From NCBI RefSeq assembly GCF_021021555.1, contig NZ_JAINWA010000003.1, positions 1,860,001 through 1,924,000 on the forward strand: a DNA stretch of 64,000 nt. Direction: 5' to 3'. Positions 3,474 to 22,243 of this stretch are shown here, piece by piece. Numbering within the stretch: the first letter of the stretch is position 1; every line of letters begins with the position of its first letter. The position numbers were made by a program, and so were the translations under genes. The DNA is from Teretinema zuelzerae (GTDB lineage Bacteria; Spirochaetota; Spirochaetia; Treponematales; Treponemataceae). The notes beneath the pieces are model-generated. The model saw only the letters and a list, made by a program, of their open reading frames with translations. It was not told the DNA's origin and made no database searches.

Positions 3474-4544
3474 TTACGTTTCAGGAAGCTTTATCTTACA
3501 CAATATTTCATGTGCAGGAACTTCTTCATACGGTTCCAAGGTCATAATGATTTCCATTGCCGCATGACATATAGGACAATGATCTACACATTCCGCTTCT
3601 TCCATCTCTATTTCCATCGGAAATATTTTCTGCAGTTTTTCTAACTTATCGCTGTATTGGTTTGAGTATAATCCATAATTCCGTACTGTTACAGTATGAG
3701 GGACAGGTATGTGATTCATGTATCGAGATACAAACAGTTCCTTATCCAACTCAATTCGCGTCTCTTTCCCTGCATGACGTTCAATATAACTAAATGTTCC
3801 TTTCTCTTCGTTTTCCACCAATTCTTGATTAAGGTTTATCACTACACCCTTAGCGGCGTGTGCTAAATATCCTATTATCTTTTGTACATTTCCCTGATAA
3901 TATGTTGCGTATACATTCCATTCGCGATCATTAATATCCTTCTGTTCAGGAATATCTTGTATATGTTTTCTCTGTAATTCTTTAACAAGATATTCTTTTA
4001 TCACATCAGTAATTCGCGTATATGATATCGTTCCTAACGGCATCCAGTCACCGTTACCAGTCAGTCCACCATCAGATAACACGCAATGTATATGCGGTTT
4101 ATAAGACATCCCCTTTCCATGTGTTTGAAATACCGCTATACATCCAGGGGTTATTCCATAATATTTCGATATGTTATTTATTGCACGCTTTACACATTCG
4201 AAAAAAGCGTTCATGAAATCTTTCTTATTTCTGAGCCACACGCCAGTGAAAACCTGTGGAATTGATATGACTAAATGAAAGTGATTAACATTTAATACAG
4301 ATGTTAATACCTTATCCTCCCATCTTTTCTGGTTCGCTTTATAACAGATAGGACAACCACGTTGGTTACAGGAATTATATACAGTTGCGATTGTTCCACA
4401 TTTTGTGCATTGCACAACTCGGCCGCCATACCGGGTTGTTTTACACTCCCTCATATTCTGAAGAGAGCGTTTTTGTTTCGCATCAAGCTTAAAGGATCTT
4501 TTAAGCGCAACAGAGCATATCTGCTCGAGTATACGGTTCTTCAT
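3474..4544 (-). CDS. IS91-like HUH transposase carried as a gene cassette (copy 1)
   Basis: A 356-residue protein. An N-terminal zinc-binding region has C46xxC49, C59 and C64xxC67. The HUH metal motif is H151-I-H153 in KPHIHCVLSDGG. The helix that carries the nucleophile has Y226 in GYLAH, where IS91 relatives read YLxRY. The second tyrosine is therefore replaced by A230, suggesting a one-tyrosine enzyme. A second CxxC (323/326) is near the C-terminus. HUH enzymes of this family nick and rejoin single-stranded DNA during rolling-circle-like transposition. The gene fills a 1422-bp cassette (3201-4622) with attC site 4 at its 3' end. The hydrophobic plus-strand frame across its 3' end is not credible. 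Confidence 0.88.
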   Translation of the reverse strand: MKNRILEQICSVALKRSFKLDAKQKRSLQNMRECKTTRYGGRVVQCTKCGTIATVYNSCNQRGCPICYKANQKRWEDKVLTSVLNVNHFHLVISIPQVFTGVWLRNKKDFMNAFFECVKRAINNISKYYGITPGCIAVFQTHGKGMSYKPHIHCVLSDGGLTGNGDWMPLGTISYTRITDVIKEYLVKELQRKHIQDIPEQKDINDREWNVYATYYQGNVQKIIGYLAHAAKGVVINLNQELVENEEKGTFSYIERHAGKETRIELDKELFVSRYMNHIPVPHTVTVRNYGLYSNQYSDKLEKLQKIFPMEIEMEEAECVDHCPICHAAMEIIMTLEPYEEVPAHEILCKIKLPET

Positions 4545-4616: not shown

Positions 4617-4725
4617 GACTAACATTTGCTTAACCTGCGTTTTGCTTGGCGCGGTTTTTGCCGAGCGCAGCGAAGTGCAAAAATCCGTGACAAGCAAATA
4701 AGTCAGGTTGAAGCAGTTGTTAGTT
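4617..4725 (-). other. attC site 5
   Basis: A 109-bp site of the GGCGCGG subtype, serving a gene-less cassette and identical to site 9. The leader hairpin of the transposase cassette lies at 4602-4614, with a GTA loop. Confidence 0.9.
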
Positions 4726-5004
4726 TTTTCTTAATCAATACTAGTTATGTGTAGAAATGTCTTAAACAAGTTAACTGGTTTAATTTCTTTTATACATTTC
4801 CATTTTGTGTAGATGCATTTTTATCAGAACAACTGGTCTAATTATATTTAACAATATTAATTCTTTCTCTTAATCATGTTTATTATGTGTAGAAGAGGTC
4901 TCATCAGATTAACTGGTTCAAGTCCCTTTTAAATCATTTCTAATTATGTGTCGAACTGTTACAGCATTTTAATGTTCTTCTGTCCTCGGGCGCCGAAGGC
5001 GTCA
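4726..5004 (-). other. Gene-less cassette with phased two-box repeats (copy 1)
   Basis: No reading frame over 60 codons is present. On the plus strand the motif TNTGTGTAGA occurs at 4746, 4804 and 4884, each followed exactly 27 bases later by AACTGGT (4773, 4831, 4911). A variant TATGTGTCGAA lies at 4945. The same two-box element sits ahead of a gene at 6395. An exact 388-bp copy of the whole cassette is at 7636-8023. It could be a regulatory or promoter cassette acting on the cassette downstream, or encode an RNA; neither is shown. Confidence 0.6.
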
Positions 5005-5122
5005 AACTAACATTTGCTTAACTTGTAATTCCGGCCCGTAGGGATTGGCATGAAAATTGCCGAGCGTAGCGACTGCAATTTTCATGACAAAAGGAATTAT
5101 CAAGTTGAAGCAGTTGTTAGTT
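5005..5122 (-). other. attC site 6
   Basis: The inner arm reads AACTTG on the left and CAAGTT on the right, where other sites have AACCTG and CAGGTT. This paired change supports hairpin folding. The leader hairpin is at 4990-5002. Confidence 0.9.
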
Positions 5123-5893: not shown

Positions 5894-5920
5894 TTTTTTC
5901 CTCGCGCGCCGAAGGCGTCA

Positions 5921-6030
5921 AACTAACATTTGCTTAACCTGCGTTTTGTTTGGCGCGGTTTTTTGCCGAGCGTAGCGAAGTGCAAAAATCCGTGACAAGC
6001 AAATAAGTCAGGTTGAAGCAGTTGTTAGTT
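5921..6030 (-). other. attC site 7
   Basis: GGCGCGG subtype, with one extra T in the central T-run compared with its relatives. The leader hairpin of the nucleotidyltransferase cassette is at 5906-5918. Confidence 0.9.
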
Positions 6031-6263
6031 TATTTTTTTGTCCGTATTACTGATGTAATAATAATCATTATTCCTGCTGCGAAAGAAAAACAACTTACTG
6101 GTTCTCCGATATTTAGAAAACCTATTAATAGTTGTAAAACACCTAACAGGATTGTACTAATTGATTGTGATTTATTCATTTGACCCATTTTCAATTCTTT
6201 ACCCATAAAATAAATAATCAAAATTATCGTGATTACAAATAAAACAAAAAGAACAGAATTCAT
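6030..6263 (-). CDS. Small membrane protein of unknown function
   Basis: A 77-residue protein with a hydrophobic segment at about residues 3-20, a short basic loop with KELKMGQMNK, a second segment at about 33-50 and a third at about 55-71, ending RTKK. AAGGA precedes the ATG. The stop overlaps the edge of attC site 7. Nothing suggests an enzyme. A long gene-free leader (6264-6708) precedes it in the cassette. Confidence 0.65.
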   Translation of the reverse strand: MNSVLFVLFVITIILIIYFMGKELKMGQMNKSQSISTILLGVLQLLIGFLNIGEPVSCFSFAAGIMIIITSVIRTKK

Positions 6264-6708
6264 TTTTCCTTCTTATTTAAAATCTAAATTTTCTTAAAAT
6301 TCTTAAGTTACTGATAAGTTTCCAAATAATTCTTTATCTAAAGATTACATTATTCTTTTCTTCAACAAAATATTCCTATCTTCATAATAATCATTATGTG
6401 TAGAAGGGTTTTAAGCACGTAAACTGTTTTTATCATTTTTTTTATTTTTTTTAATTTACTAAAAGCACTAAGGATTCTTTATTACATGAGCTAGTCCGTT
6501 CAATTGTTGACAGTTTATTTTACTCAATATTATTGTCTTTATTTTTTTGTAGCTTCATTCTTACTAAGACAAAAACAATCCTATTAATCAATTCCATTAA
6601 TGTGTCGAACTGTTATAAGCATTTATTAAATTCATGTAATTTCCGAAAAAACAGAAGCCTTGTTACAGCATTTTACAATGCATTTTTCCTCGCGCGCCGA
6701 AGGCGTCA
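6264..6708 (-). other. Gene-free leader of cassette 7
   Basis: About 445 AT-rich bases with no convincing gene. It contains one copy of the two-box element (TATGTGTAGAA at 6395, AACTG exactly 27 bases later at 6422) and a variant TGTGTCGAACTG near 6601. The conserved leader hairpin is at its far end (6694-6706). The plus-strand 62-codon frame at 6533-6721 runs into attC and has no ribosome-binding site. Confidence 0.5.
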
Positions 6709-6827
6709 AACTAACATTTAGTTAACCTGCATTTCCGGCCCGCAGGGCTTGGCGGAATTTTTGCTGAGCGTAGCGATTGGCAAAAATTGTGACAACAGGA
6801 AATGTCAGGTTGAACTAGTTGTTAGAT
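6709..6827 (-). other. attC site 8
   Basis: The outer arm pair is TTTAGTTAACC/GGTTGAACTAG, a compensated change from the usual GCTTAACC/GGTTGAAGC. The middle is ATTTCCGGCCCGCAGGG. The site is identical to site 19, which serves the second copy of this cassette. Confidence 0.92.
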
Positions 6828-7629: not shown

Positions 7630-7738
7630 ATCTAACATTTGCTTAACCTGCGTTTTGCTTGGCGCGGTTTTTGCCGAGCGCAGCGAAGTGCAAAAATCCG
7701 TGACAAGCAAATAAGTCAGGTTGAAGCAGTTGTTAGTT
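7630..7738 (-). other. attC site 9
   Basis: Same sequence as site 5. The leader hairpin of the methyltransferase cassette is at 7616-7626. Confidence 0.92.
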
Positions 7739-8017
7739 TTTTCTTAATCAATACTAGTTATGTGTAGAAATGTCTTAAACAAGTTAACTGGTTTAATTTC
7801 TTTTATACATTTCCATTTTGTGTAGATGCATTTTTATCAGAACAACTGGTCTAATTATATTTAACAATATTAATTCTTTCTCTTAATCATGTTTATTATG
7901 TGTAGAAGAGGTCTCATCAGATTAACTGGTTCAAGTCCCTTTTAAATCATTTCTAATTATGTGTCGAACTGTTACAGCATTTTAATGTTCTTCTGTCCTC
8001 GGGCGCCGAAGGCGTCA
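7739..8017 (-). other. Gene-less cassette with phased two-box repeats (copy 2)
   Basis: I see no difference from the copy at 4726-5004, and the attC is the same. Here it sits upstream, in transcription order, of the methyltransferase cassette instead of the transposase cassette, so it has moved as a unit. Confidence 0.6.
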
Positions 8018-8126
8018 AACTAACATTTGCTTAACCTGCGTTTTGTTTGGCGCGGTTTTTGCCGAGCGCAGCGAAGTGCAAAAATCCGTGACAAGCAAAT
8101 AAGTCAGGTTGAAGCAGTTGTTAGGC
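8018..8126 (-). other. attC site 10
   Basis: GGCGCGG subtype. The right end GTTAGGC overlaps the stop codon of the acetyltransferase. The leader hairpin of the gene-less cassette is at 8003-8015. Confidence 0.92.
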
Positions 8127-14670: not shown

Positions 14671-14779
14671 GTCTAACATTTGCTTAACCTGCGTTTTGTT
14701 TGGCGCGGTTTTTGCCGAGCGTAGCGAAGTGCAAAAATCCGTGACAAGCAAATAAGTCAGGTTGAAGCAGTTGTTAGAT
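14671..14779 (-). other. attC site 18
   Basis: GGCGCGG subtype, serving the structured gene-less cassette. Its sister cassette uses the unrelated site 20. The leader hairpin of the DUF2971 cassette is at 14657-14669. Confidence 0.92.
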
Positions 14780-15169
14780 CGCCAACTGTTAAACAATTTA
14801 GTTTATAACCAACTACATCAATGTTAGAAAACGATTTGCAGTACCATTAAAAACCCGAAGGCTGAATCCTTATGACTTGTTATAATGTGAAGACTGAGGC
14901 AACTCTTCTGCATATCGTTTTCTAACATCTGTTCCTGCAAGTTTTAGCACAAGTGGTATGAAGTCAACTTCATCAACGAAAGAAAAAGTTTTAATCACGA
15001 TAACACTTTAAGTAATAAACTAGGTGCCAACTGTATAACCGTCTTCCAGAGTGTTATCATCTGTTGAACTTTTTCTTAAGTCTATTTTCAGTGACAGTTT
15101 ACTTCAGTTATACACAATCTTCTTCCAAATCTCTTTCTTTTTCTTCTATTAATAAGTGTAGATTGGTCG
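14780..15169 (-). ncRNA. Gene-less cassette with long inverted repeats, candidate structured RNA (copy 2)
   Basis: No convincing gene is present. A 21-base inverted repeat with one mismatch pairs 14821-14841 with 14908-14928 around a 66-base loop. A second nested set pairs 14980-14990 with 15067-15077 (11 bp) and, inside it, 14999-15007 with 15050-15058 (9 bp). TGAAGT/ACTTCA at 14959-14972 forms another small hairpin. These stems are kept in the copy at 16209-16598, and the second set also at 1-193. Unlike other cassettes it lacks the conserved leader hairpin. Transcription is not shown, so the ncRNA call is inference. Confidence 0.5.
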
Positions 15170-15288
15170 AACTAACATTTAGTTAACCTGCATTTCCGGC
15201 CCGCAGGGCTTGGCGGAATTTTTGCTGAGCGTAGCGATTGGCAAAAATTGTGACAACAGGAAATGTCAGGTTGAACTAGTTGTTAGAT
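15170..15288 (-). other. attC site 19
   Basis: Identical to site 8. No leader hairpin lies on its left. Confidence 0.92.
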
Positions 15289-17852: not shown

Positions 17853-18923
17853 TTACGTTTCAGGAAGCTTTATCTTACACAATATTTCATGTGCAGGAAC
17901 TTCTTCATACGGTTCCAAGGTCATAATGATTTCCATTGCCGCATGACATATAGGACAATGATCTACACATTCCGCTTCTTCCATCTCTATTTCCATCGGA
18001 AATATTTTCTGCAGTTTTTCTAACTGATCACTGTATTGGTTTGAGTATAATCCATAATTCCGTACTGTTACAGTATGAGGGACAGGTATGTGATTCATGT
18101 ATCGAGATACAAACAGTTCCTTATCCAACTCAATTCGCGTCTCTTTCCCTGCATGACGTTCAATATAACTAAATGTTCCTTTCTCTTCGTTTTCCACCAA
18201 TTCTTGATTAAGGTTTATCACTACACCCTTAGCGGCGTGTGCTAAATATCCTATTATCTTTTGTACATTTCCCTGATAATATGTTGCGTATACATTCCAT
18301 TCGCGATCATTAATATCCTTCTGTTCAGGAATATCTTGTATATGTTTTCTCTGTAATTCCTTAACAAGATATTCTTTTATCACATCAGTAATTCGCGTAT
18401 ATGATATCGTTCCTAACGGCATCCAGTCACCGTTACCAGTCAGTCCACCATCAGATAACACGCAATGTATATGCGGTTTATAAGACATCCCCTTTCCATG
18501 TGTTTGAAATACCGCTATACATCCAGGGGTTATTCCATAATATTTCGATATGTTATTTATTGCACGCTTTACACATTCGAAAAAAGCGTTCATGAAATCT
18601 TTCTTATTTCTGAGCCACACGCCAGTGAAAACCTGTGGAATTGATATGACTAAATGGAAGTGATTAACATTTAATACAGACGTTAATACCTTATCCTCCC
18701 ATCTTTTCTGGTTCGCTTTATAACAGATAGGACAACCACGTTGGTTACAGGAATTATATACAGTTGCGATTGTTCCACATTTTGTGCATTGCACAACTCG
18801 GCCGCCATACCGGGTTGTTTTACACTCCCTCATATTCTGAAGAGAGCGTTTTTGTTTCGCATCAAGCTTAAAGGATCTTTTAAGCGCAACAGAGCATATC
18901 TGCTCGAGTATACGGTTCTTCAT
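17853..18923 (-). CDS. IS91-like HUH transposase carried as a gene cassette (copy 2)
   Basis: A 356-residue protein equal to copy 1 except for glutamine in place of K300 (SDQLEKL). A few silent base changes in the gene and flanks also set this copy apart from the other two. The zinc region, HUH motif and Y226 are intact. The cassette spans 17580-19001 (1422 bp) and abuts copy 3, with only one attC between them. Confidence 0.88.
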   Translation of the reverse strand: MKNRILEQICSVALKRSFKLDAKQKRSLQNMRECKTTRYGGRVVQCTKCGTIATVYNSCNQRGCPICYKANQKRWEDKVLTSVLNVNHFHLVISIPQVFTGVWLRNKKDFMNAFFECVKRAINNISKYYGITPGCIAVFQTHGKGMSYKPHIHCVLSDGGLTGNGDWMPLGTISYTRITDVIKEYLVKELQRKHIQDIPEQKDINDREWNVYATYYQGNVQKIIGYLAHAAKGVVINLNQELVENEEKGTFSYIERHAGKETRIELDKELFVSRYMNHIPVPHTVTVRNYGLYSNQYSDQLEKLQKIFPMEIEMEEAECVDHCPICHAAMEIIMTLEPYEEVPAHEILCKIKLPET

Positions 18924-19274: not shown

Positions 19275-20345
19275 TTACGTTTCAGGAAGCTTTATCTTAC
19301 ACAATATTTCATGTGCAGGAACTTCTTCATACGGTTCCAAGGTCATAATGATTTCCATTGCCGCATGACATATAGGACAATGATCTACACATTCCGCTTC
19401 TTCCATCTCTATTTCCATCGGAAATATTTTCTGCAGTTTTTCTAACTTATCGCTGTATTGGTTTGAGTATAATCCATAATTCCGTACTGTTACAGTATGA
19501 GGGACAGGTATGTGATTCATGTATCGAGATACAAACAGTTCCTTATCCAACTCAATTCGCGTCTCTTTCCCTGCATGACGTTCAATATAACTAAATGTTC
19601 CTTTCTCTTCGTTTTCCACCAATTCTTGATTAAGGTTTATCACTACACCCTTAGCGGCGTGTGCTAAATATCCTATTATCTTTTGTACATTTCCCTGATA
19701 ATATGTTGCGTATACATTCCATTCGCGATCATTAATATCCTTCTGTTCAGGAATATCTTGTATATGTTTTCTCTGTAATTCTTTAACAAGATATTCTTTT
19801 ATCACATCAGTAATTCGCGTATATGATATCGTTCCTAACGGCATCCAGTCACCGTTACCAGTCAGTCCACCATCAGATAACACGCAATGTATATGCGGTT
19901 TATAAGACATCCCCTTTCCATGTGTTTGAAATACCGCTATACATCCAGGGGTTATTCCATAATATTTCGATATGTTATTTATTGCACGCTTTACACATTC
20001 GAAAAAAGCGTTCATGAAATCTTTCTTATTTCTGAGCCACACGCCAGTGAAAACCTGTGGAATTGATATGACTAAATGAAAGTGATTAACATTTAATACA
20101 GATGTTAATACCTTATCCTCCCATCTTTTCTGGTTCGCTTTATAACAGATAGGACAACCACGTTGGTTACAGGAATTATATACAGTTGCGATTGTTCCAC
20201 ATTTTGTGCATTGCACAACTCGGCCGCCATACCGGGTTGTTTTACACTCCCTCATATTCTGAAGAGAGCGTTTTTGTTTCGCATCAAGCTTAAAGGATCT
20301 TTTAAGCGCAACAGAGCATATCTGCTCGAGTATACGGTTCTTCAT
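19275..20345 (-). CDS. IS91-like HUH transposase carried as a gene cassette (copy 3, next to attI)
   Basis: The protein is identical to copy 1 at 3474-4544. Its cassette (19002-20423) occupies the first position of the array, where integrases insert new cassettes, so this is probably the most recent arrival. Upstream of the start are a small hairpin (TGCATA/TATGCA, 20345-20361) and a secondary core-like GCCTAAC at 20377-20383. Both occur in all three copies, apart from small changes in the hairpin loop. Confidence 0.88.
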   Translation of the reverse strand: MKNRILEQICSVALKRSFKLDAKQKRSLQNMRECKTTRYGGRVVQCTKCGTIATVYNSCNQRGCPICYKANQKRWEDKVLTSVLNVNHFHLVISIPQVFTGVWLRNKKDFMNAFFECVKRAINNISKYYGITPGCIAVFQTHGKGMSYKPHIHCVLSDGGLTGNGDWMPLGTISYTRITDVIKEYLVKELQRKHIQDIPEQKDINDREWNVYATYYQGNVQKIIGYLAHAAKGVVINLNQELVENEEKGTFSYIERHAGKETRIELDKELFVSRYMNHIPVPHTVTVRNYGLYSNQYSDKLEKLQKIFPMEIEMEEAECVDHCPICHAAMEIIMTLEPYEEVPAHEILCKIKLPET

Positions 20346-20836: not shown

Positions 20837-22243
20837 TTACAGCTGATCTAAAGGGCTTTTTACTCCAGACGGGCCTTTATTGAGAACATGGGTATAAATC
20901 ATCGTTGTTTTTACGTCTGTATGGCCGAGAAGTTCCTGAACAGTTCTTATATCGTAGCCGTTCTCTAAAAGATGGGTCGCGAACGAGTGCCGAAACGTAT
21001 GGCATGTGGCTTTTTTCGAGAGGCCGGCCTTAAGAACAGCCTCATGGACAGCGCGCTGAAGAATAGATTCATCCATATGGTGCCGCCCCTCTATTCCGGA
21101 CTCTGGATCTTTCCACCGTCGATCTTGAGGAAAAACCCATTGCCAGGACCATGATTTAGACGCGTTGGCATACTTTCTCTCGAGCGAGCCGGGAAGCAGA
21201 ACTCCGCCGAATCCTTCAGCGAGATCCCTTGCATGCAGGGCTTTTATGTGCGAAAGATGCTCGCGAAGAGCCGGCTCAAGAGATTGAGGGAGCATGGTAT
21301 GCCTGTCCTTAGCGCCTTTTCCGTTACGAACAAGGATTTCATTGCGTTCAAAGTCTATATCTTGGACACGAAGAGACAGGCACTCCATAATCCGCATGCC
21401 GGTTCCGTACATAAGACGTGCAATTAAACGTTTTTCATCCTGAAGAAGGGATATAACCGTGTTGACTTCATTTCTACTGAGAACTACAGGAAGACGAACC
21501 GGTTTTTTTGCTCGGATCACTTCTCCGATTTCTTCCGGCGGATGGCCGAGGATGCACTTATACAAAAAAAGAAGCGCAGCAAGAGCCTGATTTTGGGTAG
21601 AAGCGCTTACGTCGCCTTCAACCGCAAGGGCGGTGATGAACTCATTAAGATGCTTTGTCGTTAATTTTCCGGATTCGACCCGGGAGTGTTTGCTGAAAAA
21701 ACGCTCAACCCACTTTACATAGGCTTCGCACGTACGCGGACTATAGTGCCGCGCCTCAAGGGCATCCCGATACTTTTTCAGCAGAGGATGGATGTCGACT
21801 GTATTATTCACAGCAGGCAACTTTGTCCGATGGATAGTAGTCGGAATAGGCGTCTTTGTCCCGTGGACATTAGCCGGAATTGGCGTCTTTGTCCCGTGGA
21901 TAGTAGCCGGAATAGGCGACGACGACGGAGCAGGGGCATCTCCGCAGTCGATTTGGATCGGCCGCGGGATCGTTCCCTGGGGAATTTGCAGGTTCATCGT
22001 TATGGGGAGGCTCTGCAATATTTCAGGATCGCTCAACAGGGAAGAAAAAGAAATGAACCGGTATTTAAACAGAGCGCGAAGAAAGCCACGTAGATATTTC
22101 GTGTTTCGAACCATAATCCATCCATCCATTTTTTGCGACCAGGAAGCGGAAGGAACGGCACGAATAATAGTAATAAGATTCTGGTTGTTTACAGTTTTGA
22201 TTAAGAGCAATTCGGGCGTTAGTTCGCTGATAGAGAGGATCAT
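20837..22243 (-). CDS. intI: Integron integrase (IntI-type tyrosine recombinase) with N-terminal extension
   Basis: A 468-residue enzyme that inserts and excises cassettes at attI and attC. Catalytic residues are R284 ([10 protein letters not shown]), K309 (NGKGAKDR), H415 and R418 (HTFRHSF), H441 (LLGHTD) and nucleophile Y450. The IntI-specific insertion before the second arginine box is present as [11 protein letters not shown]...[11 protein letters not shown] (about 366-391), which separates it from XerC/D. Residues 1-145 are extra compared with typical IntI of about 320-340 residues: a tryptophan-containing domain (30-65) and three 11-residue repeats (110-142). No good ribosome-binding site precedes the ATG. 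The gene has chromosomal GC content, unlike the cassettes. Confidence 0.95.
21818..21916 (-). repeat. Three 33-bp tandem repeats inside intI
   Basis: The repeats encode [22 protein letters not shown] and [11 protein letters not shown] in the linker between the N-terminal extension and the recombinase core. The proline-rich units suggest a flexible tether, and copy number may vary between strains. Confidence 0.8.

Follow-up and report, generated by a model that had tools for sequence, protein, structure and literature searches.

Two cassette families of a ~182 kb chromosomal integron, here named A and B, share a repeated two-box sequence element that is restricted to these families and to this array and always has the same orientation. 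The element was defined as TNTGTGTAGA-N17-AACTG, with a phase of 27 from box 1 to box 2. In the window, i.e., the whole stretch of 64 kb analyzed here, it had seven exact matches, all of them in the positive strand (4746-4777, 4804-4835, 4884-4915, 6395-6426, 7759-7790, 7817-7848 and 7897-7928), compared with none in 100 dinucleotide shuffles, and a search allowing two mismatches gave no site in the window beyond these seven. Discounting identical copies, the exact occurrences reduce to four: three from cassette A (A1, 4746..4777; A2, 4804..4835; A3, 4884..4915) and one in the leader of cassette B (B1, 6395..6426). The initial annotation had reported AACTG 27 bases after box 1 at 4746, 4804, 4884 and 6395, and the exact pattern search recovered all four. 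On the coding (minus) strand A1 reads AACCAGTT-N-TTCTACACATAA. With a confidence somewhat short of even, we tentatively regard the element as belonging to a control region that acts in cis on the coding strand and is carried by the cassette, in all likelihood a promoter.

The first 20 kb of the window corresponded to the integrase end of the cassette array (contig C3, ~1.697-1.880 Mb), whose GC content is 31-36% as compared with 52-58% outside, and in which ~160-180 attC sites were located by script. The integron integrase gene (20837..22243, negative strand) was identified by a match of residues 154-468 of its product to NCBIfam TIGR02249 (455.7 bits, cut-off 265); it has the same direction as the cassette ORFs, the arrangement of a reverse-type integron. 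Several named relatives of the integrase matched it over its full length (468 aa), and these were spirochaete assemblies; on this basis the host was assigned to the spirochaetes. A ~153-aa N-terminal extension containing a short tandem repeat precedes the canonical domain.

Some other features of the array were recorded. In a script count with loose criteria, 114 of the 162 cassettes had a short GC-rich hairpin at their start, immediately within the attC junction and frequently reading GACGCCTTCGGCG (e.g., 4985-5008, 5895-5921 and 6690-6712). In many cases a stretch rich in purines, GAGGA, comes next and might act as a ribosome-binding site. A gene for a transposase resembling the IS91 family, with Y2_Tnp and zinc-binding domains, is present as an array cassette at 3474-4544, 17853-18923 and 19275-20345, in the negative strand; its six copies make up one cassette family, most of them with a short attC of ~51 bp. 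In cassettes c11, c69, c101 and c106 (C3 1711132-1712078 and three other places) the only long ORF, of 135 aa, runs against the array direction. In a cassette at C3 ~1832683-1833434, a ParE-type toxin adjoins an apparent antitoxin start, with a good sigma-70 match (TTGACG-17-TACATT) ahead; promoters of the ordinary kind can thus be recognised within the array.

Family A cassettes are 392 bp long including attC and are present in four copies in the array, 100% identical, attC included. Copy 1 lies in the negative strand and comprises an attC site at 4621..4722, with R''/R' core boxes and palindromic arms, and a body at 4723..5008 without any plausible ORF, the longest being 24 aa in the coding strand and 22 aa in the other. 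The initial annotation spoke of gene-less cassettes, and this holds for the A cassettes only: the site at 6395, which it placed in another cassette's leader, belongs to a cassette encoding a 77-aa membrane protein (see below). The cassette is flanked by attC on both sides within an array that has an intI gene, as integron cassettes are. A duplication of the whole cassette, annotated at ~7636-8023, was confirmed: copy 2 occupies 7634..8021 in the negative strand and is identical to copy 1, as are two more copies elsewhere in the array. Since all four copies are identical, they bear witness to recent copying and not to long conservation. Each has three full elements and one diverged box 1. The latter belongs in copy 1 to a fourth unit, A4 (TTCGACACATAA, 4944..4955, negative strand), without a phased box 2, and lies at 7957-7968 in copy 2. 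The units are spaced 58 and 80 bp apart and the phase is constantly 27, all length differences falling outside the element. Downstream neighbours vary between the four copies. Tiny ORFs following box 1 (MIKRKN* and MYKRN*) were considered and rejected, their start codon not being conserved in family B.

Family B has six copies in the array, 73-95% identical. The one in the window (5925..6712, negative strand) consists of an attC site at ~5925-6026 and a body at 6027-6712, and contains a hydrophobic ORF of 77 aa (6030..6263, negative strand) with AAGAAGGA ahead of the ATG. The ORF, which encodes a membrane protein of 77-79 aa, is open in five of the six copies, the remaining one carrying a frameshift; comparison of the protein with Pfam and NCBIfam gave nothing significant at curated cut-offs. 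It is preceded by a leader of ~450 bp that contains one full element, B1, and one diverged box 1, B2 (TTCGACACATTA, 6598..6609, negative strand). The box 1 of B1 and the B2 box lie within blocks of 25 and 18 nt, respectively, that are invariant in all six copies. The leader also presents a strong antisense sigma-70 match in the positive strand (6507-6536, TTGACA-18-TATTGT), of which the TTGACA is changed in the most diverged copy.

A search of the whole 3.62 Mb genome revealed 17 exact two-box matches, in one strand only, between positions 1,708,983 and 1,867,928 of contig C3, and no exact match to a reversed-pattern control. All 17 are inside the integron and come from families A and B only, and a profile HMM of the unit found A and B copies and no other array cassette. 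When two mismatches were allowed, one extra array site appeared, at 1,732,601 in a B copy, together with 10 scattered sites outside the array, as compared with four for the reversed-pattern control. Box 1 alone had 26 exact matches in the genome, 24 of them in A or B cassettes on the coding strand and two outside the array. The initial annotation had proposed a binding site for a regulator or an unusual promoter, and held that the proposal would fall if there were neither transcription start nor protein binding and, in addition, no occurrences outside the array; the last of these is what the whole-genome search found for the exact two-box element, and a genome-wide regulator is unsupported. 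An operator of a host regulon is likewise unsupported, no exact two-box site being located outside the array. Given this confinement to the array, no host regulon backs a host factor as the reader of the element.

In an alignment of A1, A2, A3 and B1 the mean pairwise identity was 0.93 for box 2 and 0.92 for box 1, compared with 0.50 for the spacer and 0.45 for the 3' flank, a contrast that is biased by the boxes having been picked for being alike. As composition alone would give an identity of 0.28, the values for the spacer and the flank indicate that the whole unit of ~60 bp is related by descent. The alignment of A1 with B1 extends over ~65 bp (score 51, shuffle maximum 42), which makes the two relatives by descent, not independent occurrences. 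Family B offers a less biased test. In its leader all 24 columns of the two box-1 copies were invariant, versus 289 of 393 elsewhere (p = 8e-4, a value that treats columns as independent in six related copies), and the only fully invariant blocks of at least 12 bases were the two holding these box-1 copies. Box 1 is invariant while the leader drifts, and constraint on it is therefore supported by the sequence comparison. For box 2 and its phase the evidence of constraint is weaker: four of six columns were invariant in B, one of the B copies (c31) has lost the box, and A4 and B2 are devoid of it. The earlier argument for a functional site, drawn from repetition at a fixed spacing, thus holds for box 1, invariant in all B copies, and is in keeping with the identity of both boxes relative to spacer and flank; it holds less well for box 2.

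Cassette A, then, is gene-less and belongs to a large chromosomal integron of the sedentary kind; in its body a repeat of ~60 bp stands four times in tandem, the copies being diverged, with the conserved core TTCKACACAWWA on the coding strand and, in three of the copies, an ACCAGTT box upstream at fixed phase. The same repeat makes up the conserved part of the family B leader, upstream of the small membrane-protein gene. We propose that this repeat is a control region, and most probably a promoter that depends on an activator or is of a type other than sigma-70; cassette A would then start transcription through its own attC into whichever cassette lies downstream, and in B the repeat would drive the family's own gene. 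The mobile promoter cassette suggested in the initial annotation is thus plausible and has precedents (PMC6557892, PMC11014356). If CATAAT served as the -10 hexamer, the centre of box 2 would fall at about -40, a position typical of class II activator binding. The control-region reading is favoured by the position of the element in B, ahead of an ORF that remains in frame in five of the six copies, and by the lack in A of both an ORF and an RNA fold above chance. A sigma-70 promoter at the element was rejected, as A1-A3 showed no consensus hexamers. The region had 21 promoter-like matches, no excess over shuffles (17.5 +/- 4.6), and the promoter score of cassette A was about the median of the array windows. 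These results speak against the promoter reading, as do the copies without box 2 and the confinement of the element to the array. In silico promoter prediction is reported to fail for gene-less cassettes in Vibrio (PMC11014356). A more specific version, in which the promoter module works without sigma-70, depends on an activator and travels as a cassette, so that one regulator would govern the B cassettes and everything downstream of A, seems improbable to us; if true, membership of the regulon would be set by integrase shuffling, comprising the cassettes downstream of A copies and the B cassettes.

Several of these observations could also be accommodated by other explanations. The boxes may form an operator without a promoter, bound by a cassette-encoded or host protein that represses or organises the array, with A acting as a decoy or supplying an additional operator. 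The presence of several sites in constant phase within one short cassette, the AAC/GTT half-sites in ACCAGTT, and the constraint on box 1 where promoter hexamers are missing would all suit such an operator; nevertheless, no recognisable DNA-binding protein is encoded by A or B and the HMM of the unit found no site in any other array cassette, and we consider it unlikely. Should the element be either a promoter or an operator, integron cassettes would carry a specific repeated control site common to unlinked cassettes, beyond generic promoters, and the shuffling of cassettes would change regulatory connections in addition to the set of genes.

About equally doubtful is that A is a B-type leader that has lost its ORF and been amplified by the integrase, its repeats being tandem duplications without present function in A. 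The two families have in common their first ~30 bp, AAAATGCTGTAACA and the ~65 bp alignable stretch, and the identity of the four A copies speaks of recent copying and not of long conservation. Against this, box identity within A itself is far above that of spacer and flank, and the same core is constrained in B. If this explanation were correct, A would exemplify a gene cassette that decayed to a gene-less one and is still copied by the integrase. Less probable than either is a cassette coding for a small RNA or a riboregulatory leader, in which case the boxes would be sequence motifs of the RNA. This would agree with the orientation on a single strand and with the existence of sRNA-encoding ORF-less cassettes (sRNA-Xcc1, as cited in PMC6557892); however, neither A (z = -0.23) nor the B leader (z = -0.30) folds better than shuffles and there was no Rfam match, and a structured RNA was rejected on these grounds.

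The most abundant cassette of the array, family C, is also gene-less, with 13 copies (e.g., 14776-15174, negative strand, and 12 more places) and a body of ~398 bp. It does not have the usual cassette-start hairpin and presents a long internal inverted repeat, GTTAGAAAACGAT...ATCGTTTTCTAAC. Its predicted fold is more stable than those of shuffled sequences (z -2.25; equalled by 2 of 100 shuffles); it had no Rfam match and was not found in the other 189 family genomes searched; it is possibly an RNA-encoding cassette. Homology of C with A or B was dismissed, the resemblance at AATCTACACTTATTA being no higher than in shuffles.

Relatives of the element were sought in other genomes. Among 195 genomes of the family, 20 others had the exact pattern, with only one or two scattered matches apiece, and a single recurring sequence accounted for many of these matches. 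Cassette A compared with 393 phylum genomes, and cassette B with the 195 family genomes, gave short weak matches only outside their own genome. The exact element patterns were not found in viral contigs, nor was cassette A in plasmids. Judging by the spirochaete genomes, viral contigs and plasmids sampled, the element appears private to this genome. We found no description of the motif itself; the kind of object, a gene-less cassette, is already known.

The closest known counterparts are the ORF-less cassettes derived from oral Treponema, TMB4 and MMB37, which showed promoter activity in reporter assays (PMC6557892). They resemble cassette A in being gene-less and in belonging to a spirochaete integron of the reverse type, the type of the Treponema denticola integrons (PMC6557892), with intI in the direction of the cassettes. 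They were identified by BPROM and reporter assay, whereas A has no sigma-70 match and carries a repeated conserved motif; the core pattern TTCKACACATWA was absent from the one T. denticola genome tested (G512). The sRNA-Xcc1 cassette of Xanthomonas, cited in PMC6557892, is similarly ORF-less and encodes a trans-acting RNA, whereas cassette A has no fold above chance. The Vibrio superintegrons (PMC11014356) are likewise large sedentary chromosomal integrons with gene-less cassettes and proposed transcription into downstream cassettes. They belong to a different phylum and have a different attC type, and promoter activity was measured there, whereas A is read from its sequence; a repeated motif shared by the gene-less promoter cassettes is not mentioned in the sections consulted. 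The same study reports sense-strand promoter activity for 8 of 10, 3 of 4 and 11 of 13 gene-less cassettes in three Vibrio species, and for all those tested in a fourth. This published base rate for the ORF-less cassettes of Vibrio and Treponema favours promoter activity for cassette A.
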